From Xylophilus sp. Leaf220 (GTDB lineage: Bacteria > Pseudomonadota > Gammaproteobacteria > Burkholderiales > Burkholderiaceae_C): a stretch of DNA of 64,000 nucleotides. The stretch lies in assembly GCF_001421705.1 (NCBI RefSeq), contig NZ_LMKO01000027.1, positions 62,001-126,000 of the forward strand, in the 5' to 3' direction. The notes under the pieces are model-generated. The model was given only the letters and a program-made list of their open reading frames with translations, had not been told where the DNA came from and ran no database searches. The position numbers were made by a program, and so were the translations under genes. Each line of letters begins with the position of its first letter. The first letter of the stretch is position 1. This document shows, piece after piece, positions 1-10,227 of the stretch.

Positions 1-514
1 GGCGCAGGCTACCAGGCTTGTAGCTATGCGGCCGAGCGGCGCCCGGTCGGTGGAAGTGAGTTGGTGTGGGTGCATGGCAGGTAATGGACCACGACCGGCG
101 TCCACGGTGCGCCCGAAGATATGTCAGGGTGTAAATACGGGTCTTAAAACGTACTGACAGTGCGACATCTCCCGCACGAGTTGCGGAATTGTCCTATTGA
201 CATGTATTCGGTGTGGTTGATTACGGATCCTTCGTTTCACCGCGAACGCCGTTTCCTCTGGAGAAAATTCAAGAAGAAGTGCAACACGACGGCGGAAGTT
301 CCATCCGTCCGAGCTGCTTGACAAAAGTTTGCACAACGATTTCAGCGCAGTATTTATGCCCCTGCTTGGTGCATTTGGTGGCGAAAATGTAAGTTATTTT
401 GCATAAATAGCATTACAAATTCGTCAACTGGCTGCCATAAATGGAACGTACAAACGGGGCTCTCGCAGTCCGGGCCATCCGGTTATTACCCATCCGCTTC
501 ATCAGGAGTTTCCC
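1..514. other. Intergenic leader upstream of the repeat-protein locus
   Basis: I see no convincing gene in this stretch. The 70-codon frame on the minus strand at 124-336 has no recognisable domain and no clear ribosome binding site. The last 170 bases (about 340-450) are clearly richer in A+T than the coding DNA around them, which fits a promoter region for the gene starting at 515. A TTGACA hexamer lies at 197-202, but its best -10 partner is poor, so I do not call a promoter. Confidence 0.5.
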
Positions 515-883
515 ATGCAGAAGAAATTTGCCCTCGTCGGTATCGTCTCCCTGGCCTTCGTCTCGTCCGCCGCCTTCGCTCAAACTGCCAGCATCAGCGT
601 GCCGGGTGTCGGCAAGGCTTCGGGTTCGATGGGTTCGACCGTCGAGCGCAGCAATATCACGGTCGCCAACAACACGGCGCGCGACGTGCTGGTCGGCGGT
701 GGATCGGCCAGCATCCTGAAGCTGGGCGGACAGGTCGAGATGAGCGGCGTGGCCAACGTCAACAGCGTCAACATCACCGGCTCCACGCTGCGCGACTCCA
801 ACATCACCGTCAGCGGCAACACGGCAGAGAACATCAAGGCCATCGGCGGCACGGCCAACGTCAACTCGGTCAACATCAACTGA
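515..883 (+). CDS. Small secreted two-repeat protein (122 aa), candidate fibre subunit
   Basis: The start is supported by AGGAG at 504-508, six bases before the ATG. Residues 1-22 form a classic signal peptide ending in AFA before Gln23. The mature part is about 100 residues, poor in charge and rich in Ser, Asn, Gly, Thr and Val. It holds two copies of a repeat unit, each with S-N-I-T-V near the front, N-T-A in the middle, a GG turn and ANVNSVNI at the end. The first copy has a loop of about 15 residues after the GG turn; the second lacks it. The unit is the same as in the 1214-aa protein that follows. Curli CsgA is also a small secreted protein of Ser/Asn/Gly-rich repeats exported through CsgG. 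By analogy this may be a major subunit, but it has no recognisable curlin repeat and I do not know its family. Confidence 0.8.
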   Translation: MQKKFALVGIVSLAFVSSAAFAQTASISVPGVGKASGSMGSTVERSNITVANNTARDVLVGGGSASILKLGGQVEMSGVANVNSVNITGSTLRDSNITVSGNTAENIKAIGGTANVNSVNIN

Positions 884-901
884 GTCCAGACACCGTGCGC
901 C

Positions 902-929
902 GCATCGATGCCCTCGGGGCATGCGATGC
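902..929 (+). promoter_or_regulatory. Intercistronic hairpin between the small and large repeat-protein genes
   Basis: GCATCGATGCCC at 902-913 pairs with GGGCATGCGATGC at 917-929 around a TCG loop, leaving one bulged base. No run of T follows, so it is not a standard intrinsic terminator. It could partly stop transcription or protect the upstream mRNA, so that the small protein is made in excess of the large one. That role is inferred. Confidence 0.5.
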
Positions 930-978
930 CGGTGCGTGACACCGCGATCTGCGTCCGCAGATCCCTCCGGAGCCGCTT

Positions 979-3900
979 GTGATCGTCGTCCCCCCCAAGA
1001 AACTGCTGGCACTCGCCGTGCTGTGCACCATGCCGGCCGTGCATGCGCAAGAGAGCGTGTTGCACGGCCTGGGCTGGATCACCGAACGGCCCGGCACCGA
1101 GGTCGATGCCCGCTCGCAGGTGCGGTCGGTCGGAAACCAGTCGCGCGCGGCGGTCAGCGCCAGCGGCGGCAAGGTCAGCGCCGGTCCTGGCGGACTGGCG
1201 GGTTCGGTCGACCTGGTGTCGACGGCGCAGGCCAACGTCATCGGGCTCAGCGCGCTCACCGTGCGCAACACGCAGATCGACGTGCTGCAGAACCAGGTGT
1301 CGGGCTTCATCGCCGCGGTGGGCGGCGCGGCGACGGCCAACACCGTACTTCTTTCGGGCGGCGCCGCACGGCGCCCGCTCACCGATTCCCGGGTGCAGCT
1401 CTCCGGCAACCGGGCCAGCGACGTGCAGGCCATCGGGTTCAAGGGGCAGGTGATGGTGGGGGCCGGCTCGCTGCAACTGCCGGGTCGCGCCAGCGCCAAC
1501 AGCGTGCTGATGAACGAAAGCGACACGGTGCGCACGCAGGTGACCGGGGTCGGCAACGTGGCCCACGGCATCACCGCAGTGGGCGGATCGGCACTGGCCA
1601 ATGCACTCACCACCAGCAAGAGCACGCTGGAGGACACGCGCATCAGCCAGAGCGGCAACCAGGCGCGCGACATCCGCGCCGGTGGCGGATCGGCCGGCGT
1701 GGGCTGGGGGGCGGTGCTCGATGCGCAGCTCAACGGGGTCGCCGCGGCCAATGCGGTGGCATTGGCCGGCAGCCGGGTGCGGGGCGCCCAGATCGACCAG
1801 AGCCGCAACACTGCGCAGGGCAGTCTGTCGGTCGGTGGCAGCGCGCTGGCGAACAGCGTGAGCCTGTCGGACTACCAGGGAACCGATCTTCGCGCCTACC
1901 GGGCGCAGCAGAGCGGCAATACCGCGAAGGCGGTCGACGCGTGGGGGGGCGAGGCGACGGTGCTCAAGGGTGCCATCGCATCGGTCGACAACGCGGCGAT
2001 GGCGCTCGCCAATTCCATCTCGGTGAACCGTGGCGATCTGCAGGGCAGCACGCGGCACATGCTGTCGGGCAACCAGGCCGACACGGTCCAGGCCGCAGGC
2101 GGCGGCGCGTCGGCCAACAGCATCTGGCTGGACGACTCGACCGCCCGCAACAGCCAGGTCACCCTGACCGGCAACACCGCCCGCAACATCGACACCGCCG
2201 GTGGCCGCGCCACGATCGGCGGTGGATACGTGGGCAGCTTCGAGCGGCAGGGCCGCGCAGTGGCCAACAGCCTGGTGCTCGACCGCCAGTCGTCGTTGCA
2301 GGACACGCCGGTGACTCTGTCGGGCAACGAGACGGCCGGCGTCCGCGGAACCGGCGGGCTGGCGGCGGCGGCGAGCGTGCTGGCCAGCAACGGCAGGATC
2401 GGCGACGGCAGCATCGCGATCACCGGCAACCGTACCGACGGTGTCGCCGCGCGGGGATTCGACAACAGTGTCGGCGGCGGACTTCTCTACAGCGCCAAGC
2501 AGCAGGCGGTCGCGCTGGCGAACGGGCTCGGCGTCTTCGACTCGACCGCCGATGCGCGCTCCCTGGTCTTTTCGGGCAATACCGCGCGGGCGTTGTCCGC
2601 CCAGGGCGGCAAGGTCAATGCCAACAGCGTGAGCCTGGAGCAGGGCGACGGCGACGGAGCCGCGCCTTCGCGCCTGTCGGCCAACGTCACGGTGACGGGC
2701 AACACAGCGACCCAGCTGTCGACCGGCGCCAGCTCGACCACCGGGTTTGGCAAGGCGTTCAGCTCGGAGAGCGTCGCCCGCGCCGCGGCCAATGCGGTGG
2801 TGCTCAGCCACGGCGCCACGGTGGATGCGGGCTCGCCGGTGTCCCTGGCCGGCAACGATGCCCGCAACGTCGGCGCGATCGGCGGCACCGCGCTGGTCAA
2901 TGCGCTGGCGGCCTACCGCAGCGCATCGGTGAGCCGCAGTCCGCTCGCCCTCTCCGGCAACCGCGCGTCGGAGGTCTCCACCGGGGGCATCTACAACCAG
3001 GTCGGCGGGATCGGCAGCGCGCGCAACGGCGTGCTGGCGGCCAATGCGGTCTACTTGGAAGGGCCCGGCGGCGTGCGCATGGACGGCACGCCGGTGCAAC
3101 TGTCGGGCAACACCGCCACCACCCTGCGGGCCGACGGCGGCCGGGTGAACGCGAATGCGCTGGCCATCAACGGCGACGGGGCCCTGACGGCATCGCAGGT
3201 CACGCTGACCGGCAACGAAGCGCGCAACGTCACCAGCCAGGGCGACGAACGCACGGTGCTCGGCCATGCGATCGACAAGGGCGTGGGCACCGCCAGCGCG
3301 AACACGGTGCAGGTGCTTGGCACGCTCCGGGCGAGCAGCCTCCAGTTGCTGGCGAACGTGGCCTCCCGCGTGTCCGCCGACAAGGGCCTCGCGGCGGCCA
3401 ACAGCGTCGTGGCCGACCAGGCGGGCCAGGTGGACGGTCTGCAGGCCAGCATCGTCGGCAACGTGGCCAACGATGTCCGGGCCCGCGACGGGCGCATGGC
3501 ACTGGCCAACACGGTGCTGAACGCAGGCCGGTTCTCGGGCGCGCGTGTCGGCATCACCGGCAACACCGGGTCGGCGCAGACGGGCAGCGCCGACGCGCTG
3601 GCCAACAGCCTGCGCAATGGCGAGGGCGCGAGCCTCTCCGGAGGCTCGGCGACGCTGGCAGGCAACAACGGCGCGGCCCAGGGCGGCGGCATGGTCAACA
3701 GCATTGACAACGCCGGCTCGCTCTCCGGCGCCGGCGTGACCGTGGTGGGCAACCGCGGCACGGTCGGTGGCAGCGGCAAGGCCAACAGCCTGCACAACCG
3801 CGGCCGCCTGACGGGCAGCACGGTGCAATTGGCCGGCAACAACGGAAACGCGGCCGGCCAGGGCGTGGTCAACAGTGTCGACAACCAGGGCCAGCTGAGC

Positions 3901-4623
3901 GGATCCAACATTACCATCCTGGGCAACCAGGGGAGCGCGCAGGGCAACGGCATCGCCAATGCGCTGGTCAACACCGGCAGCGTGGCCGGCAGCCAGATCA
4001 CCATCCTCGGCAACCGTGGGAATGCGAGCGGCGGCGCGGTCAACAGCGTGCGCAACGAGGGCGCGGTGTCGGGCAGCCAGATCGTGCTGATGGGCAACCA
4101 GGGCAGCGCCAGCGGCGGCATGGTCAACAGCGTCTCCAACAAGGGCACGATGACCGGCGGGCAGATCGCCATCGTCGGCAACCGCGGCACGTCGTCCGGC
4201 GGCGGCACCGTCAACAGCGTGGACAACCGCGGCATCTTGACCGGCCAGGTGATGATCGCCGGCAACCAGGGCACGGCGGTCGGCGGCGGCACCGTCAATT
4301 CGCTGGTCAACCGGGGGCTGATGACCGGCAACGTGGTGATCGCGGGCAACCGGGGCACGGCCATGGCCGGCGGTACCTCCAATTCGGTGATCAACCACGG
4401 GGTGCTGACCGGCACCGTCGCCATCGTCGGCAACGCCACGGCCGCCGGTGCGGGGATGACGTCGGGCAGCGTGCGCAACATGGGTGCGCTGGTCGGTGCG
4501 GCCGCGGTGACGGCCAACGTCCCGATGGTTGCCAACCCCGGCTACACGGTACCGATGCCGTCCACCGGCGTTGTGAATCATTCTGTAACCATTGTGCCCG
4601 GGTTCAACATGACCAATATGTAA
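979..4623 (+). CDS. Large secreted repeat protein (1214 aa), putative adhesin or fibre
   Basis: The GTG start is preceded by GGAG at 969-972 with six bases of spacing, and a signal peptide of about 23 residues ends in VHA before Gln. The rest is almost wholly repeats. Residues about 45-855 hold some 19 units with the core x-[ST]-G-N-x-A, a GG turn and A-N-[ST]-V. Units with a short turn (about 33-38 residues) alternate with units carrying a loop of about 15-20 extra residues. From about residue 855 to 1170 the units shorten to about 28 residues (core G-N-x-G, then V-N-S-V/I-x-N). The C-terminus is a short non-repeat tail. There is no autotransporter barrel, no sortase motif and no visible cysteine pairs, so export probably depends on the CsgG/HfaB-like pore encoded downstream. 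A beta-solenoid fold is my inference. The holdfast anchor HfaD is a possible distant relative, unproven. Confidence 0.8.
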   Translation: MIVVPPKKLLALAVLCTMPAVHAQESVLHGLGWITERPGTEVDARSQVRSVGNQSRAAVSASGGKVSAGPGGLAGSVDLVSTAQANVIGLSALTVRNTQIDVLQNQVSGFIAAVGGAATANTVLLSGGAARRPLTDSRVQLSGNRASDVQAIGFKGQVMVGAGSLQLPGRASANSVLMNESDTVRTQVTGVGNVAHGITAVGGSALANALTTSKSTLEDTRISQSGNQARDIRAGGGSAGVGWGAVLDAQLNGVAAANAVALAGSRVRGAQIDQSRNTAQGSLSVGGSALANSVSLSDYQGTDLRAYRAQQSGNTAKAVDAWGGEATVLKGAIASVDNAAMALANSISVNRGDLQGSTRHMLSGNQADTVQAAGGGASANSIWLDDSTARNSQVTLTGNTARNIDTAGGRATIGGGYVGSFERQGRAVANSLVLDRQSSLQDTPVTLSGNETAGVRGTGGLAAAASVLASNGRIGDGSIAITGNRTDGVAARGFDNSVGGGLLYSAKQQAVALANGLGVFDSTADARSLVFSGNTARALSAQGGKVNANSVSLEQGDGDGAAPSRLSANVTVTGNTATQLSTGASSTTGFGKAFSSESVARAAANAVVLSHGATVDAGSPVSLAGNDARNVGAIGGTALVNALAAYRSASVSRSPLALSGNRASEVSTGGIYNQVGGIGSARNGVLAANAVYLEGPGGVRMDGTPVQLSGNTATTLRADGGRVNANALAINGDGALTASQVTLTGNEARNVTSQGDERTVLGHAIDKGVGTASANTVQVLGTLRASSLQLLANVASRVSADKGLAAANSVVADQAGQVDGLQASIVGNVANDVRARDGRMALANTVLNAGRFSGARVGITGNTGSAQTGSADALANSLRNGEGASLSGGSATLAGNNGAAQGGGMVNSIDNAGSLSGAGVTVVGNRGTVGGSGKANSLHNRGRLTGSTVQLAGNNGNAAGQGVVNSVDNQGQLSGSNITILGNQGSAQGNGIANALVNTGSVAGSQITILGNRGNASGGAVNSVRNEGAVSGSQIVLMGNQGSASGGMVNSVSNKGTMTGGQIAIVGNRGTSSGGGTVNSVDNRGILTGQVMIAGNQGTAVGGGTVNSLVNRGLMTGNVVIAGNRGTAMAGGTSNSVINHGVLTGTVAIVGNATAAGAGMTSGSVRNMGALVGAAAVTANVPMVANPGYTVPMPSTGVVNHSVTIVPGFNMTNM

Positions 4624-4697
4624 TGCGGGGCGACGCGGCCGACCGGCCGTCTTCCGCATGGCAGGCCGCACGGCCGACACCCTTAGAGGAGGATCAG

Positions 4698-5153
4698 ATG
4701 CAGTCCAACACAGCTTTCCATCCGCACGGTTTCGTCCGCTGCGCCACCCTGTCGGCAGCGGTCGTGCTGGCCCTGGCATCGGGCGCGAGCCACGCCCAAC
4801 TGGTGAACTACGGCGAGCAGTTGTCCACCTACAAGGACAACCAGACCAGCGGCGTTCGGTTGATCGATGCCACCACGCCGAGCGTGGCGGCGCGGGCGCG
4901 GGTGGCGCGTGCCCTGTCCCAGAACACGGTGGTCGACCAGTCGGCGCTGGTGCAGCCGGACGGCACGCTGAAGCTGCCCGAAGACCAGAAGAACGTGGTG
5001 ATCCGGACCACCTACAACGATGTCACCCGCGCTGCCGACGGCACGCTGCGGGTCGCCAGTCCCACGATCCAGGGCAACGTCAACGGCAACGTGACCCTGT
5101 TCGTGGACGGCAAGGGCGTCCAGAACATCACCGTGCTGAACAACGGCCGATAA
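4698..5153 (+). CDS. Small secreted protein (151 aa) of the CsgG/HfaB locus
   Basis: The frame is open from 4623, but GAGGAGGA at 4686-4693 points to the ATG at 4698. A signal peptide follows (hydrophobic core about residues 19-31, ending SHA before Gln). The mature protein has no cysteine. Its C-terminal third contains IQGNVNGNVTLF and a closing NITVLNNGR, a pattern of Gly-Asn turns and short beta strands that recalls curlin-like proteins and the Caulobacter holdfast protein HfaA. It lies between the large repeat protein and the secretion lipoprotein and is probably in the same operon. It may be a minor subunit, nucleator or anchor, but I do not recognise the family with certainty. Confidence 0.75.
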   Translation: MQSNTAFHPHGFVRCATLSAAVVLALASGASHAQLVNYGEQLSTYKDNQTSGVRLIDATTPSVAARARVARALSQNTVVDQSALVQPDGTLKLPEDQKNVVIRTTYNDVTRAADGTLRVASPTIQGNVNGNVTLFVDGKGVQNITVLNNGR

Positions 5154-5182
5154 GGAACGCGGGCGAGGGGCCCGGCGCTGCT

Positions 5183-5216
5183 GCTGCCGCAGCGTGGCGC
5201 GTTGCCGTGCGGCAGC
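5183..5216 (+). promoter_or_regulatory. Hairpin upstream of the secretion lipoprotein gene
   Basis: GCTGCCGCA at 5183-5191 is an exact inverted match to TGCGGCAGC at 5208-5216, with a 16-base loop. No T run follows. It sits in the 103-base gap before the CsgG/HfaB-like gene and may set mRNA stability or translation there. The function is inferred. Confidence 0.35.
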
Positions 5217-5256
5217 GTGTCCTGCAAGTCATCCAGAACAACTCTCTACAAACAGA

Positions 5257-6456
5257 ATGACCACGTCTCTGCAATTTCTCTCCCGCACCGCGGCCGCATG
5301 CTGCATCGCCGCCGCGCTGGCGGGCTGCGCCAATACCCAGAACGCGCTGAGCGATGCCAACAAGCTGCTGGCCGAGCGCGAGGCCGACAAGCCGTTGCCG
5401 AGCGCCAACCTCAGCCAGTACGCGCCCGCCCTGGCCCGCCTGGGACGGATGCTCGACATCTACAAGGACGGCGATCCGGTCATCTACATGCAGACCCGCA
5501 ACATCCTCGATGCGACCAACCTGTCGCATCCGCTGGTGGGCGCCGAAATTCCGGGCGACATCACCGAGATGGTCCGTACCGCGGTCAACCGCATCGGCGC
5601 GCGGGTGGTCTATGTGCCGTACCACCCCGACTACCTGGTGTCGCAGGCCCAGTTGGGTGCCAAGTTCGGCGTGACGATGCCCGACTTCCTGATCACCGGC
5701 GCCCTGACCGAGTTCGACCGCGCGCTGTCGGGCGCCGGCCGCTCCAACAACGCCAGCATCGAGTTCGGCAGCGGTCGCGGCAACACCGCACTCGGCTTCG
5801 ATAACAAGCGCACGGCCATCTTCTCGGCCCTGGCGCTCGACCTGAACCTGGTGAGCTTCAACACCCAGCAGATGGTGCCCCGCATCCAGGCGTCCAACGT
5901 CGTGAAGGTGCTGAACTTCAGCTCCGAGGACAACGCCAGCCTGGGCTTCTACGGCGATGCTTTCGGCTTCAAGCTCGAAGGCAAGTACCTGCAGGGCCGG
6001 CATTCCGCGATCCGCACCCTGGTCGACCTGAGCGTGCTCGAGATCGTCGGCAAGGCGACCAACACGCCGTACTGGCGCTGCATCCCCAACGGCACACCCG
6101 ACCCGGTCGTGGTCGACAACATGCGGGCGTCGTTCGAATCGCTGGCGCCCGAGATGAAGATCGGCCTGGTGCAGGTCATGCTGCGCAAGTACGGCCAGCC
6201 GGTGGTCGTCACCCAGCAGTTCGACGAGCCCACCAAGAACGCGGTGCGCGCGGTCTACGGCAGCCGGTTCCCGCAGGTGGGCGACCAGGTCGACGTGCTC
6301 ACCTGGGCCGGTTTCGAGCCGCTCTTCTTCAACGTGCCGATGGCCTGGGACGCCGAGATGGTGCAGGCTGCCGCTGCGCAGGCCGCGCGCGATGCCGCCC
6401 CGCCGCCGCCGAAGCCGATGGCCCCGGTGACCGCCCAGCCCGGAGGCGCAGCATGA
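5257..6456 (+). CDS. CsgG/HfaB-family outer-membrane secretion lipoprotein (399 aa)
   Basis: The start at 5257 gives a lipoprotein signal peptide with lipobox LAGC (Cys24). Position +2 is Ala, which fits outer-membrane sorting. An in-frame start at 5194 would place an unlikely 21-residue extension before it. The middle has the CsgG order: a segment around GAEIPGDITEMVRTAVN, a strand ITGALTEFDRALSG, the LDLNLVSFNTQQMVPRI strand pair, and the helix ending IRTLVDLSVLEIVGKAT. In curli CsgG forms the nonameric export channel; in Caulobacter HfaB is needed to place the holdfast anchors. The C-terminal 120 residues extend past CsgG's usual length (about 277 aa) and end in a Pro/Ala-rich tail. Its 3' end overlaps the next gene by 4 bases (ATGA). 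I am confident of the superfamily and less so of which branch. Confidence 0.82.
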   Translation: MTTSLQFLSRTAAACCIAAALAGCANTQNALSDANKLLAEREADKPLPSANLSQYAPALARLGRMLDIYKDGDPVIYMQTRNILDATNLSHPLVGAEIPGDITEMVRTAVNRIGARVVYVPYHPDYLVSQAQLGAKFGVTMPDFLITGALTEFDRALSGAGRSNNASIEFGSGRGNTALGFDNKRTAIFSALALDLNLVSFNTQQMVPRIQASNVVKVLNFSSEDNASLGFYGDAFGFKLEGKYLQGRHSAIRTLVDLSVLEIVGKATNTPYWRCIPNGTPDPVVVDNMRASFESLAPEMKIGLVQVMLRKYGQPVVVTQQFDEPTKNAVRAVYGSRFPQVGDQVDVLTWAGFEPLFFNVPMAWDAEMVQAAAAQAARDAAPPPPKPMAPVTAQPGGAA

Positions 6457-7256
6457 AGCGGGTTCTACCGGCGCACCGCCTCGTGGCCCGCCAGGCACGC
6501 GGCTGGGCCGTGGCGGCATCCGTCGCCGTTGCGTGCGCCGCGCAGGCCCAGACGGCGGGCGTCGGCATTCCGGGCGGCAGCGGCGCGGCGGCGACCGGTG
6601 CGCCGGCAGCCTCCACCGTGGCGCAGCCCGCCTCCAGCGGCGCGCGCTACATCGAGTCGTGCCAGCAGTCGATCGACCGTGGCGTCGGCGGCCTGGGCTG
6701 CCAGGGGCCGCTCTACACCAACGAGATCTCGCGTTTGAAGGAAGAAGCGCTGCGCACCAACAACGCATCGCTGCTCACCCTGCTGGGCGATGCCTACCAG
6801 AGCAACCGGTCCTCGGTGTCCGACATCGGCCAGGCCTACCGCTGGTACCTGTTGGGCGCGGTGCGGGGCGATCCGCGCGCGATGGAGCGGCTGACGGCGC
6901 TCTACAAGGACGGCCGCGGCGTGCAGCAGGACAAGATCAAGGCGCTGGGCTATGCCCGCCTGACCGAGCGGCTGGCGATTCCGGGCTCCAGTTCCGCCCA
7001 GGGCGCGGCCGAGACCATCCGCAGCCTCGGCAGCGAGATGGCCGACGAGGAGATGGTGCTGGCCGACCGTTTCGCCAGCGAGTTCGACGCGATGGTACGC
7101 AGCCGTGCCGGCACCGCGGCACAGGGCGGTGGCGGCGCGGCCGCCACCGGGGTGCCCGGCGTGGGCGCCGCGCAGCCGCCCGAGGCCGCCGCGGCCCCGG
7201 TACCGCCGTCGACCACGGTGATCACCGTTCCGCGCGGCGGCGGCGCGGCCCGCTGA
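6453..7256 (+). CDS. Periplasmic Sel1-like repeat protein (267 aa)
   Basis: The start overlaps the stop of the secretion lipoprotein, implying translational coupling. An N-terminal signal peptide ends near AQAQT (about residue 33). Residues about 100-180 hold two Sel1-like helical repeats (AYRWYLLGAVRGDPRAM and DKIKALGYARLTERLA), the alpha-solenoid type used for protein-protein contacts. Low-complexity Gly/Ala/Pro-rich segments flank them, and the C-terminus is a Pro/Val/Gly tail. Its job is unknown. In this setting a periplasmic scaffold or chaperone for the exported repeat proteins is plausible, by analogy with CsgE and CsgF, though no sequence likeness to those is visible. Confidence 0.75.
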   Translation: MKRVLPAHRLVARQARGWAVAASVAVACAAQAQTAGVGIPGGSGAAATGAPAASTVAQPASSGARYIESCQQSIDRGVGGLGCQGPLYTNEISRLKEEALRTNNASLLTLLGDAYQSNRSSVSDIGQAYRWYLLGAVRGDPRAMERLTALYKDGRGVQQDKIKALGYARLTERLAIPGSSSAQGAAETIRSLGSEMADEEMVLADRFASEFDAMVRSRAGTAAQGGGGAAATGVPGVGAAQPPEAAAAPVPPSTTVITVPRGGGAAR

Positions 7257-7305
7257 GCGTGCCGCGCGTCTTCGATCTTTCCCTTTCCATGGAGGATTCT
7301 TGCTC

Positions 7306-7674
7306 ATGCGATCACGCCAGAAGCTCTCGATATCCCTGCCGGCCCTTTTGTGGACCCTGGTCACCTGCGGCATCGCCATCGCCCAGCCGGGCGCCGTAGT
7401 GGTGGACCGGCCCGGCAGCGGCACCAACCGCATCGAGGTCACCGGCAACCAGGCGTCCGGCGTGGCGGTACGCTGCGCCGACGGCAGGGTGGCCGCCACG
7501 CCTCCGGCCAACGTCAACAGCGTGAACATCGACGGCCAGGCCCTGCGGGGCAAGACGGTGGTCGTCACCGGCCGCAACAGCCAGGACGTGCGGGTGGCCG
7601 GCAGCGGCTGCGACGGAACGCCGGCCGGCGCGGTTCCCCCGCCCGCCAACGTCAACAGCGTGAACATCCGCTGA
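7306..7674 (+). CDS. Second small secreted two-repeat protein (122 aa) with paired cysteines
   Basis: GGAGG at 7291-7295 is ten bases from the ATG at 7306; a TTG at 7300 would be too close. A signal peptide ends at about residue 26 (GIAIA before Gln). Two repeat units follow, each ending in ANVNSVNI exactly as in the protein at 515-883. Each unit also has one cysteine in its turn (RCADG and SGCDG) followed by a Pro-rich loop, and the two cysteines could form a disulphide between stacked repeats. The ANVNSVNI coding boxes are nearly identical in DNA to those at 751-775 and 853-877. It is probably a capping or minor subunit of the same structure. No known family is recognised. Confidence 0.78.
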   Translation: MRSRQKLSISLPALLWTLVTCGIAIAQPGAVVVDRPGSGTNRIEVTGNQASGVAVRCADGRVAATPPANVNSVNIDGQALRGKTVVVTGRNSQDVRVAGSGCDGTPAGAVPPPANVNSVNIR

Positions 7675-7763
7675 TCCTCGCCATCCCTTGGCGCAGCTCC
7701 GGCCCGGCGCCCGGCCCGCAGTCGCCGGTGCGCGTGTCCCGACCGTTTCGAAGGAAATCCACC

Positions 7764-8387
7764 ATGTCCCTCCCGTCCCCCCCTAATTCCTTTTCGCGCA
7801 GGCAGGTTCGGCTGCTGGTGCTTCCCGGCCTCGCAGCATTCGCATTCGGCCTGGCAGGGTGCTCCGATAAAGCGCCTACGCCGGTCGCAGCGCCCGCTGC
7901 CGTGCCCGCAGTTCCTGCGCCGGCTCCCGTTGCGGTCGCCCCGGCGGCGCCGGTGGCAGCGCTACCGGCAGCCGCTCCCGGTGCGGCAGCCGCTCCGCGC
8001 CAGGTGGCCTTGCAGGTGCAGGGCACCGCCGGCCCGGGCTTGTCGGTGCGTGTCAAGAGCGTGGAGATGGGCGACGACGCCACTCAGGTGGCCGTCAGCG
8101 CGTCCTATTCGAGCCGGATCTCGTCGTACACCAAGCTGGCGTCGATGGACACCTTCCTGGAGGACGAGGCCGGCAACCGCTTCATGCTGAAGCGTCCGGC
8201 CGACAACCCCGATCTGAAGATCGTCAGCGGCGACACGATGGAGGGCACCCTCGTCTTCCTGGGCGCGATCGCGCCCGGCACCAAGCAGGTCACGCTGGTG
8301 TTCAACCAGGGCATGCTGCCCGACAACTCGATCGGCCCGGGCCTGACGATGAAGCTTCCGCTGGTGGCCGGCGGCACCGCATCGTGA
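7764..8387 (+). CDS. Lipoprotein with Ala/Pro linker and Ig-like C-terminal domain (207 aa)
   Basis: AAGGAA at 7751-7756 supports this start. The signal peptide carries lipobox LAGC (Cys33), followed by about 55 residues of Ala/Pro/Val linker that could span from the membrane. The C-terminal 120 residues look like a beta sandwich of the kind seen in DUF4352-type extracellular domains, with alternating strands such as LSVRVKSVEM, QVAVSASYSS and TKQVTLVFNQG. It lies between the second small repeat protein and an OmpA-type protein and overlaps the latter by 4 bases. It may tether or cap the surface structure, but its function is unknown. Confidence 0.72.
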   Translation: MSLPSPPNSFSRRQVRLLVLPGLAAFAFGLAGCSDKAPTPVAAPAAVPAVPAPAPVAVAPAAPVAALPAAAPGAAAAPRQVALQVQGTAGPGLSVRVKSVEMGDDATQVAVSASYSSRISSYTKLASMDTFLEDEAGNRFMLKRPADNPDLKIVSGDTMEGTLVFLGAIAPGTKQVTLVFNQGMLPDNSIGPGLTMKLPLVAGGTAS

Positions 8388-9106
8388 TCCACCGCGCGGT
8401 TCGGCCGTGCGGCCTGCTGCTGGCGGCTCTGGCAGTGGCCGGCCCGGTTTTCGCGGTCGACGGATACACCGTGCGCCGGGTCCAGGGCAGCCTGAAGGAT
8501 GCCGACACCCGCTTCGCCCGGGTGGCGGCGCCCGACACCGTTTTGCGCAGTGCGGCGGCGGACACCACGCTGCAATCGCGACCCGCTGCGTCGAGCTTCG
8601 GCACGGTGCAAGCCCCGCCGACCACCTTTCGCATCTTCCGCGAAGCCGAGGTACCGAAGGACCGTCTGCAGGTGACCCGCGAAGTGCTGGTGGCGCTGCA
8701 GGCACGCGAAACCCCGCAGCAGGCTATCGTGGTCGACCTGCCGGCCGACGTGCTCTTCGATTTCGACAAGGCCACGCTGCGGCCGGACGCGGCCGATGCG
8801 CTGGCCAAGGCCGCCGAACTGCTGCGCAGCTATCCCGGCGCGCCGGTCCGCATCAACGGCCATACCGATGCCAAGGGCACCGACGACTACAACGACGCGC
8901 TGTCGTTCAAGCGCGCGCAGACCGTTGCAGCGGCGCTGCAGCAGGGCCAGGGCCGCAGCTTTCCGACCGAGGGCTTCGGAAAGCGCAGGCCGGTGGCACC
9001 CAACACCACCGTGGACGGCCGGGACGATCCGGCCGGCCGCCAGCGGAACCGCCGGGTCGAGATCGTCATCGAGCCGATGGCCGCTGCTGCGGGCACCGCC
9101 CGCTGA
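8384..9106 (+). CDS. OmpA-family peptidoglycan-binding protein (240 aa)
   Basis: A GTG start overlaps the preceding stop. The signal peptide ends near residue 24 (PVFA before Val). The C-terminal half is an OmpA/MotB domain: VLFDFDKATLRPDA, INGHTDAKGTDDYNDALSFKRAQTV and the terminal NRRVEIVIEP are its hallmarks, and they bind the diaminopimelate peptide of peptidoglycan. No beta-barrel precedes it, so the protein is probably soluble in the periplasm. In this operon it would anchor the secretion pore or the surface fibre to the cell wall. The domain call is firm; the role is inferred. Confidence 0.88.
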   Translation: MIHRAVRPCGLLLAALAVAGPVFAVDGYTVRRVQGSLKDADTRFARVAAPDTVLRSAAADTTLQSRPAASSFGTVQAPPTTFRIFREAEVPKDRLQVTREVLVALQARETPQQAIVVDLPADVLFDFDKATLRPDAADALAKAAELLRSYPGAPVRINGHTDAKGTDDYNDALSFKRAQTVAAALQQGQGRSFPTEGFGKRRPVAPNTTVDGRDDPAGRQRNRRVEIVIEPMAAAAGTAR

Positions 9107-9129
9107 ACCTGTGAAGGAAAGGAACGACC

Positions 9130-9399
9130 ATGGCCCTGATCCACTGTCCCGAATGCAAGCGCGAGGTCTCCACCCGCGCGGTGGCCTGCCCCGCCTGCGG
9201 CTGCCCGATCGCCGAAGGCCGCGACGGATCTGCGGCGCATGCGGCGAAGCCGGTCGTGGACGCCGGCCTGCTCGGCAAGCTGGCGGCCGTGCTGGGTGCC
9301 TGGGTGGTTGCGCCCCATGTGGAGCGCACTATCGGCATCGTCGCGTTCTGCCTGATGGCCGCCTTCGTCGGCTATTTCCTGTTCTCGGGCGGACGCTGA
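9130..9399 (+). CDS. Zinc-ribbon small membrane protein (89 aa)
   Basis: AAGGAA-type Shine-Dalgarno sequence lies just upstream. The N-terminus has two CxxC knuckles (CPEC and CPACGC) that form a zinc ribbon, followed by a linker and one hydrophobic segment at about residues 66-85 (VAFCLMAAFVGYFLFSG). Such proteins occur as small membrane-bound accessory factors. It is the last gene before the terminator at 9411-9444 and may be the tail of the operon or an unrelated passenger. The function is unknown. Confidence 0.7.
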   Translation: MALIHCPECKREVSTRAVACPACGCPIAEGRDGSAAHAAKPVVDAGLLGKLAAVLGAWVVAPHVERTIGIVAFCLMAAFVGYFLFSGGR

Positions 9400-9410
9400 C
9401 CGGTACCGCC

Positions 9411-9444
9411 CATGCAAAAGGCCGGCAGAGCCGGCCTTGCATGC
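9411..9444. terminator. Bidirectional hairpin terminator
   Basis: CATGCAA plus GGCCGGC on the left pair with GCCGGCC plus TTGCATG on the right, around an AGA loop, with two extra A bases bulged on the left. It lies between the end of the + strand locus (9399) and the end of the minus-strand dismutase gene (9460), as expected for a shared terminator of convergent units. Confidence 0.65.
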
Positions 9445-9459
9445 GGTGGGTGTGCTGCC

Positions 9460-10227
9460 TTATCGGGCGGCGGCGGCGAAGCGGCGGTTGACCTCATTCC
9501 AGTTCACCACCTGCCACCAGGCCGTCAGGTAGTCGGCGCGGCGGTTGTTGTACTTGAGGTAGTAGGCATGCTCCCAGACGTCGTTGCCCAGCAGCGGCGT
9601 GCCCCGGGTCTCGGCCACGTCCATCAGCGGGTTGTCCTGGTTGGGGGTGGAGGTGACGGCCAGCTTGCCGTCCTTCATCACCAGCCACACCCAGCCCGAT
9701 CCGAAGCGGCCGGCGCCGGCGCGGTTGAATTCCTGCTGGAACTGCGCGAGCGAGCCGAAATCGGTCGCGATGCGGGCAGCCAGCGCCGGCGATGGCGATC
9801 CGCCCTGGCCGACCGGCGCCATGCTGGCCCAGAAGAAGGTGTGGTTCCAGACGCCGCCGGCGTTGTTGCGCACCAGCGCCGGATAGCGGGAGACGTTGGC
9901 CAGCACCTGCTCGATGGACGAGCGGGCCAACTCGGGGTTGGTGGCCGCGGCACCGTTGAGGGCATCGAAGTACGCCTTGTGGTGGCGGCCGTAATGGATC
10001 TCCATCGTCGCGCGGTCGATCACCGGCTCCAACGCGTCGGCCGCGTAGGGCAGCGGTGCCTGACGGAAGACCTGGGCGGCCGCAGGGCCGGGCGGTGGTG
10101 GGGGTGGCGCTGGGGCCGCCATCGGCGCCTGGGCCATCGGCGCGGCGGTGGTCGGGGCGACGGGCGTTGTCTGGGCGCAGGCGGTCAGCAGCGCGGCGGC
10201 AGCGGCGAGGGCGGCGATCTTGTACAT
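9460..10227 (-). CDS. Lipoprotein-type Fe/Mn superoxide dismutase (255 aa)
   Basis: Converts superoxide to hydrogen peroxide and oxygen. The Fe/Mn-SOD fold is clear: EIHYGRHHKAYFDALN gives the first metal His, NHTFFW the second, and the C-terminal DVWEHAYYLKYNNRRADYL gives the Asp and His ligands. Unlike cytoplasmic enzymes it begins with a signal peptide and lipobox LTAC (Cys17), then a Pro/Ala-rich spacer of about 30 residues, so it should be membrane-tethered in the periplasm. AAGGAA lies just before the ATG. Whether it uses iron or manganese cannot be settled by eye. Confidence 0.9.
   Translation of the reverse strand: MYKIAALAAAAALLTACAQTTPVAPTTAAPMAQAPMAAPAPPPPPPGPAAAQVFRQAPLPYAADALEPVIDRATMEIHYGRHHKAYFDALNGAAATNPELARSSIEQVLANVSRYPALVRNNAGGVWNHTFFWASMAPVGQGGSPSPALAARIATDFGSLAQFQQEFNRAGAGRFGSGWVWLVMKDGKLAVTSTPNQDNPLMDVAETRGTPLLGNDVWEHAYYLKYNNRRADYLTAWWQVVNWNEVNRRFAAAAR

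Follow-up and report, generated by a model that had tools for sequence, protein, structure and literature searches.

We describe a nine-gene locus of Xylophilus sp. Leaf220 which probably encodes a dedicated outer-membrane system for the export and display of β-helix proteins, most plausibly as a surface adhesin or fibre. If this is true, pores of the CsgG/HfaB kind would serve wider repeat cargos than curlins and holdfast anchors, very long β-helices included. Genes now labelled 'hypothetical' or 'DUF4384' in many environmental and plant-associated bacteria would gain a testable role in adhesion, and the cargo range of the pore family would become a question for deletion and localization tests.

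Organization of the locus

The window, by which we mean the whole stretch of 64 000 nucleotides that was analysed, is C27:62001–126000 of a 4.5 Mb genome. A preliminary description made from the sequence had listed nine collinear open reading frames on the + strand; an ORF check of the window found all nine in place (Table 1). Of the family labels given there, OmpA holds (Pfam OmpA, E = 1.6e-17), and this is the sole one of the nine proteins above a Pfam cut-off. The Sel1 label (E = 0.011, 16.8 versus a cut-off of 30.7 bits) and the zinc-ribbon label (Zn_ribbon_3, E = 1.9e-4, 21.2 versus 27 bits) are sub-threshold in Pfam, as is the MotX/MerG-like match of sel1 in NCBIfam (E = 1e-4). The bounds first assigned, 515–9399, are correct for the nine genes, but the left limit is not: a tenth gene, dlp, had been overlooked. 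The locus begins further left since each of the 23 loci compared has a divergently oriented dlp homologue upstream of rep1, at a distance of a few hundred bases. Searches of Pfam and NCBIfam with dlp gave no match.

Table 1. Features of the locus (window coordinates unless a contig is named)
Feature	Position	Strand	Description
dlp	1–105 (C27:61431–62105, running on past the left window edge)	-	5' portion of a lipoprotein gene in divergent orientation; product about 224 aa
Control region	106–514		AT-rich, intergenic between dlp and rep1; low GC, recurrent words
rep1	515–883	+	Secreted, 122 aa; signal peptide, homology to REP; predicted single two-turn β-helix unit
REP	979–4623	+	Secreted repeat protein, 1214 aa; predicted right-handed β-helix
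small	4698–5153	+	Secreted, 151 aa; very conserved C-terminal β-like segment (alignment)
pore	5257–6456	+	CsgG/HfaB-superfamily lipoprotein, lipobox LAGC; C-terminal peptidoglycan-binding-like segment
sel1	6453–7256	+	Secreted, Sel1-like; Sel1 and MotX/MerG-like matches, both sub-threshold
rep3	7306–7674	+	Secreted, 122 aa; one two-turn unit, two conserved cysteines
lpp	7764–8387	+	Lipoprotein, lipobox LAGC; perhaps an Ig-like domain (weak DUF5643 match)
ompA	8384–9106	+	Periplasmic; OmpA peptidoglycan-binding domain (Pfam)
znr	9130–9399	+	Small zinc-ribbon protein; one C-terminal transmembrane helix, hydrophobic from about residue 67

The long divergent promoter region between dlp and rep1 is poor in GC. 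The 420 bases upstream of rep1 have a GC content of 0.50 versus 0.67–0.71 for whole loci of GC-rich relatives, and values of 0.37–0.58 are found in nearly all loci (window 106–514 and the same region in L031–L053). Words of the form TGTAAG...TTACA recur here, as judged by eye, and are possibly an operator. A search for a σ70 promoter within window positions 1–9600 gave no match. We looked between rep1 and REP for a terminator or attenuator, which would point to a high-copy subunit; the spacers fold, but they carry no conserved T-run terminator.

Conservation as a unit

A scan of named genomes for the pore yielded 23 loci from the Comamonadaceae (Xylophilus, Variovorax, Xenophilus, Acidovorax, Ottowia, Diaphorobacter and others). 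Two of these, L038 and L039, apparently represent one strain, and L049 has frame breaks in sel1 and ompA. All nine genes, sel1 and lpp included, are present in the same order and on the same strand in 20 of 20 complete loci, the homologues being about 37–92% identical; we therefore do not regard the nine reading frames as products of chance. The other three loci are cut by a contig end and carry every gene up to the cut. In the homologous loci small is always directly upstream of the pore. The genes past dlp and past znr mostly vary from group to group among the 23 loci; the constant dlp together with the changing outer flanks therefore delimits a unit with sharp borders.

The preliminary description had held that its reading of the locus as one system would fail if the pore gene were regularly found without the repeat genes, and had proposed a survey of gene cohesion across the Burkholderiales. 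The close pore, defined by E below 1e-190, was found in 13 of 251 family genomes, and the genomes that match the repeat profile are the identical 13, so that neither occurs alone. The proposed test thus does not refute the reading. In 300 genomes of the order both are found in the same three. A further 35 family genomes gave weak pore matches only, through a longer paralogue, and are without such a repeat. Of the 13 family genomes with the system 12 have dlp, the exception being G985, and gene content can vary, as in G923, where lpp is present twice and no znr is detectable. Pairwise protein distances between genes of the locus correlate strongly (r = 0.97 for the pore and REP), in a comparison made without a housekeeping baseline. 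The correlation shows joint descent, not interaction. The genes of the locus are shown to be one inherited unit.

The flanking genes for miaB, a histidine kinase and a superoxide dismutase are 96–97% identical to those of Xylophilus ampelinus. In a congener without the system (L097, G859:C199, 9101–10753) znr, ompA and the end of lpp are joined directly to the end of dlp, and this scar sits between the same chromosomal neighbours, namely miaB, the histidine kinase and a response regulator. This genome, assembled in draft form into about 470 contigs, seems to have lost the six central genes by one deletion. The superoxide dismutase-like protein next to our locus (window 9460–10227, - strand), of the iron/manganese type, has an apparent lipoprotein signal, LLTAC, annotated by eye; this is an unusual place for the enzyme.

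The repeat proteins

The preliminary description had noted one repeat unit in three secreted proteins, those starting at 515, 979 and 7306, and profile comparison bears this out. With hhalign, rep1 matches REP with E = 2e-12 and rep3 matches rep1 with E = 5e-12, while reversed rep1 and rep3 profiles compared with REP were negative. By these alignments rep1, REP and rep3 are shown to be mutual homologues with a common repeat. The N-terminal part of REP consists of alternating 51- and 34-residue repeats, giving a period of 85, and the C-terminal part of 28-residue repeats; the repeats open with a pattern like V-x-I-x-G-N and contain A-N-S-V. Each of rep1 and rep3 is exactly one two-turn repeat pair of the REP type. 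The signal peptide of rep1 ends in AFAQ; the protein has one pair of the 51+34 type and is conserved in 23 of 23 loci. In the alignment of rep3 Cys102 is invariant, and a second cysteine is located in the first turn. Mature rep1 and REP open with similar motifs, PGLxSGKGSAGSEV and GGLGWHKNSAGTEV, which are candidates for a targeting signal or a helix cap.

Structure prediction of the repeats had been proposed from the outset. The AlphaFold model of REP is all β (pLDDT 80.9, pTM 0.79). Its best structural neighbours (VIA) are many right-handed β-helices with Z values of 20–23.5, for example 2vbe with an r.m.s.d. of 3.2 over 350 residues; most of the matched region lies C-terminal of about residue 550. 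Foldseek gave weak matches, the first of them to Ag43 (E = 8e-3). In keeping with the stacked β turns of about 25–35 residues that typify the fold, the prediction for REP is a long right-handed β-helix and not a curlin-like stack. Searches of Pfam, NCBIfam and the sequences of solved structures placed REP in no known family; the last of these also found no relative of the pore and only chance matches for small.

One alternative is a curli-like amyloid, in which rep1, with rep3, would provide the polymerizing subunits and REP the nucleator of a cross-β fibre. The small two-turn secreted units with their Asn-rich repeats and a CsgG-superfamily exporter are in favour of it, and curlin-like repeats of the NQSGLLN type occur at some distant loci of the pore group (L029, L030). 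Nevertheless, the predicted β-helix of REP matches no curlin, the nine proteins have no Pfam match to CsgE, CsgF or curlin, and REP differs from a plain polymer subunit in its nearly constant length: almost every relative falls within about 1160–1216 residues, L041 having 1078 and L034 a broken frame. We consider this arrangement unlikely.

Type V secretion is the route of β-helix passengers like Ag43 and EtpA. REP has in common with these adhesins a signal peptide and, by prediction, the long right-handed β-helix. The neighbouring candidate exporter is different, however, being of the CsgG/HfaB kind. REP could be an ordinary β-helix adhesin exported otherwise, leaving the CsgG-like protein to serve in envelope sensing, assembly or the like, and the weak top match to Ag43 would be in keeping with this. 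Against it, Pfam and NCBIfam searches detected neither an autotransporter barrel nor a haemagglutination-activity (TPS) domain in REP, no TpsB partner was found, and the pore and the repeat strictly co-occur. An ordinary adhesin of this type is highly improbable.

The pore

The preliminary description had called the product of the gene at 5257 a CsgG/HfaB-like pore lipoprotein. A profile of 21 close pores aligned to 11 HfaB-family proteins over residues 9–326 (hhalign 98.4%, E = 9e-15). A superfamily profile which includes 14 distant relatives matched HfaB at 99.4% (E = 9e-22) and CsgG at 96.4% (E = 1e-9), and neither reversed profiles nor unrelated families of the locus matched the HfaB and CsgG profiles. 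The score against the HfaB equivalog NF037935 is 20.9 bits, far below the curated cut-off of 300 bits. With Pfam CsgG the window pore gave no match, and its best relative (E = 0.033) is also below the cut-off; the relation therefore rests on profile–profile evidence. On that evidence the pore is a member of the CsgG/HfaB superfamily, as had been proposed.

The lipobox includes Cys24, and both Gly23 and Cys24 are invariant in the alignment. The tail is similar to PG_binding_1; the match falls short of the cut-off for the window protein but exceeds it in several distant relatives, which also have DUF4384. The AlphaFold model of the pore, with 21 close relatives in the alignment, is of low confidence (pLDDT 44), so the oligomeric barrel is not seen directly; Foldseek found no matches to this model.

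Comparison with known systems

In Caulobacter the surface display of HfaA and HfaD depends on HfaB, and the complex traverses the outer membrane (PMC6707917). Our locus resembles HfaABD in that the gene of an HfaB-superfamily outer-membrane lipoprotein adjoins genes for a small secreted protein and a repeat protein. It differs in the distance of the pore from the equivalog and in the addition of a predicted β-helix of about 1200 residues, two two-turn proteins and OmpA, Sel1-like, lipoprotein and zinc-ribbon genes. Two counterparts were considered and rejected: small as HfaA (hhalign probability 2.8%) and REP, suspected from its pattern, as HfaD (0.3%) show no detectable homology, and NCBIfam gave no match to HfaA or HfaD among the nine proteins. 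The profile comparison with curlin, HfaA and HfaD that had been suggested at first thus revealed no detectable relation for the repeat proteins or small; the HfaB match belongs to the pore only. The initial statement that the repeat proteins are not curlins and have no autotransporter barrel stands, family searches having returned no such matches.

These observations bear on the idea that the pore and the displayed repeats hold a polysaccharide at the outer membrane, in the manner of a holdfast anchor, and are not themselves the adhesin. HfaB is the nearest named family to the pore, and the order of small secreted protein and pore with an adjoining repeat protein resembles hfaA–hfaB–hfaD. The absence of detectable homology for small and REP counts against this, as does the fact that no polysaccharide genes remain beside the locus, most flanks of which differ among genomes. 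Such an anchor seems to us rather unlikely.

Likeness to curli (type VIII secretion, CsgA/B/E/F/G) lies in the CsgG-superfamily pore and in an Asn/Gly-rich repeat cargo with signal peptides only. The cargo repeat and its predicted fold are unlike curlin, and the pore is under the Pfam CsgG cut-off. Curlins are exported by CsgG and are thought to be unfolded (PMC3521004). A search of freely accessible journal papers found no description of the locus. By these tests it belongs neither to the HfaB equivalog nor to HfaABD or curli, although its mode of action may be similar to theirs.

Proposed mechanism

We favour export through the pore because of the synteny in 20 of 20 loci, the identical pore and repeat genome sets, the correlated distances and the HfaB and CsgG profile matches, together with the β-helix model, the two-turn units, the distant pores beside repeat proteins and the role of HfaB in Caulobacter. 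The repeat proteins would be exported by Sec, stay unfolded and thread through the pore, which small perhaps gates or plugs. Outside they would fold to β-helices, REP giving a long rod. On purely geometric grounds, rep1 and rep3 may cap, prime or extend this rod by end-to-end stacking of matching turns, and rod and short units together would make up the surface adhesin or fibre. OmpA, the PG_binding-like tail of the pore and the lipoproteins could tether the complex to peptidoglycan and the outer membrane. Export by the pore, surface location and fibre formation are what we infer from the analysis as a whole. A complicating factor is that the known cargo of CsgG is small unfolded curlins, next to which a β-helix of some 1200 residues would be unusual.

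A more specific model is offered tentatively. A pore of the CsgG/HfaB type adapted to a rod of about 1200 residues and to end-stacking two-turn proteins might build a heteropolymeric β-helix fibre, and could represent one branch of a wide, unrecognized group of CsgG-like pores in Proteobacteria, many labelled DUF4384 and each with its own short repeat cargo.

Distant relatives and other pores of the genome

In G016, from another family of the order, a pore of 46% identity, a look-alike of small, a single two-turn repeat protein and an OmpA gene are found together; the repeat was also recovered independently by profile (E = 4e-7). Of the 14 distant loci 12 have a small secreted repeat protein beside the pore, recognized in G016 by reading and in the other 11 from computed internal repeats, so the general plan seems to be a pore with a short repeat cargo, often accompanied by OmpA. 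At most of the 13 loci other than G016 these proteins are quite different. Repeat-bearing reading frames number 21 of 81 near distant pores, a count that includes some spurious antisense frames or other repeats, versus 2 of 37 elsewhere. Pores of the DUF4384 type (for example that of Azospirillum ramasamyi, annotated merely as 'DUF4384 domain-containing protein') belong to the same superfamily and share the CsgG-like region and PG_binding_1 with ours. They likewise adjoin small secreted repeat proteins and often OmpA; they differ in the extra DUF4384 domain, in other cargo repeats and in being outside the nine-gene set.

The curlin-like repeats at L029 and L030 read NIKQNQSGLLNQQKM, and these two loci are a possible bridge between curli and the pore group studied here. 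At L075 and L077, from Gammaproteobacteria, a DUF2807 'head GIN' protein adjoins the pore as a recurring partner, at L077 with an OmpA protein as well. The Xylophilus genome itself has a third CsgG-family protein (L003 6422–8131, C8), with Pfam CsgG and PG_binding_1 over the cut-off and no adjoining repeat genes noticed. The second CsgG-like pore of this genome (L022, C12:278000–294000) carries DUF4384 and is located beside a 237-residue Asn/Ser-rich repeat protein and a pair resembling a response regulator and a histidine kinase.
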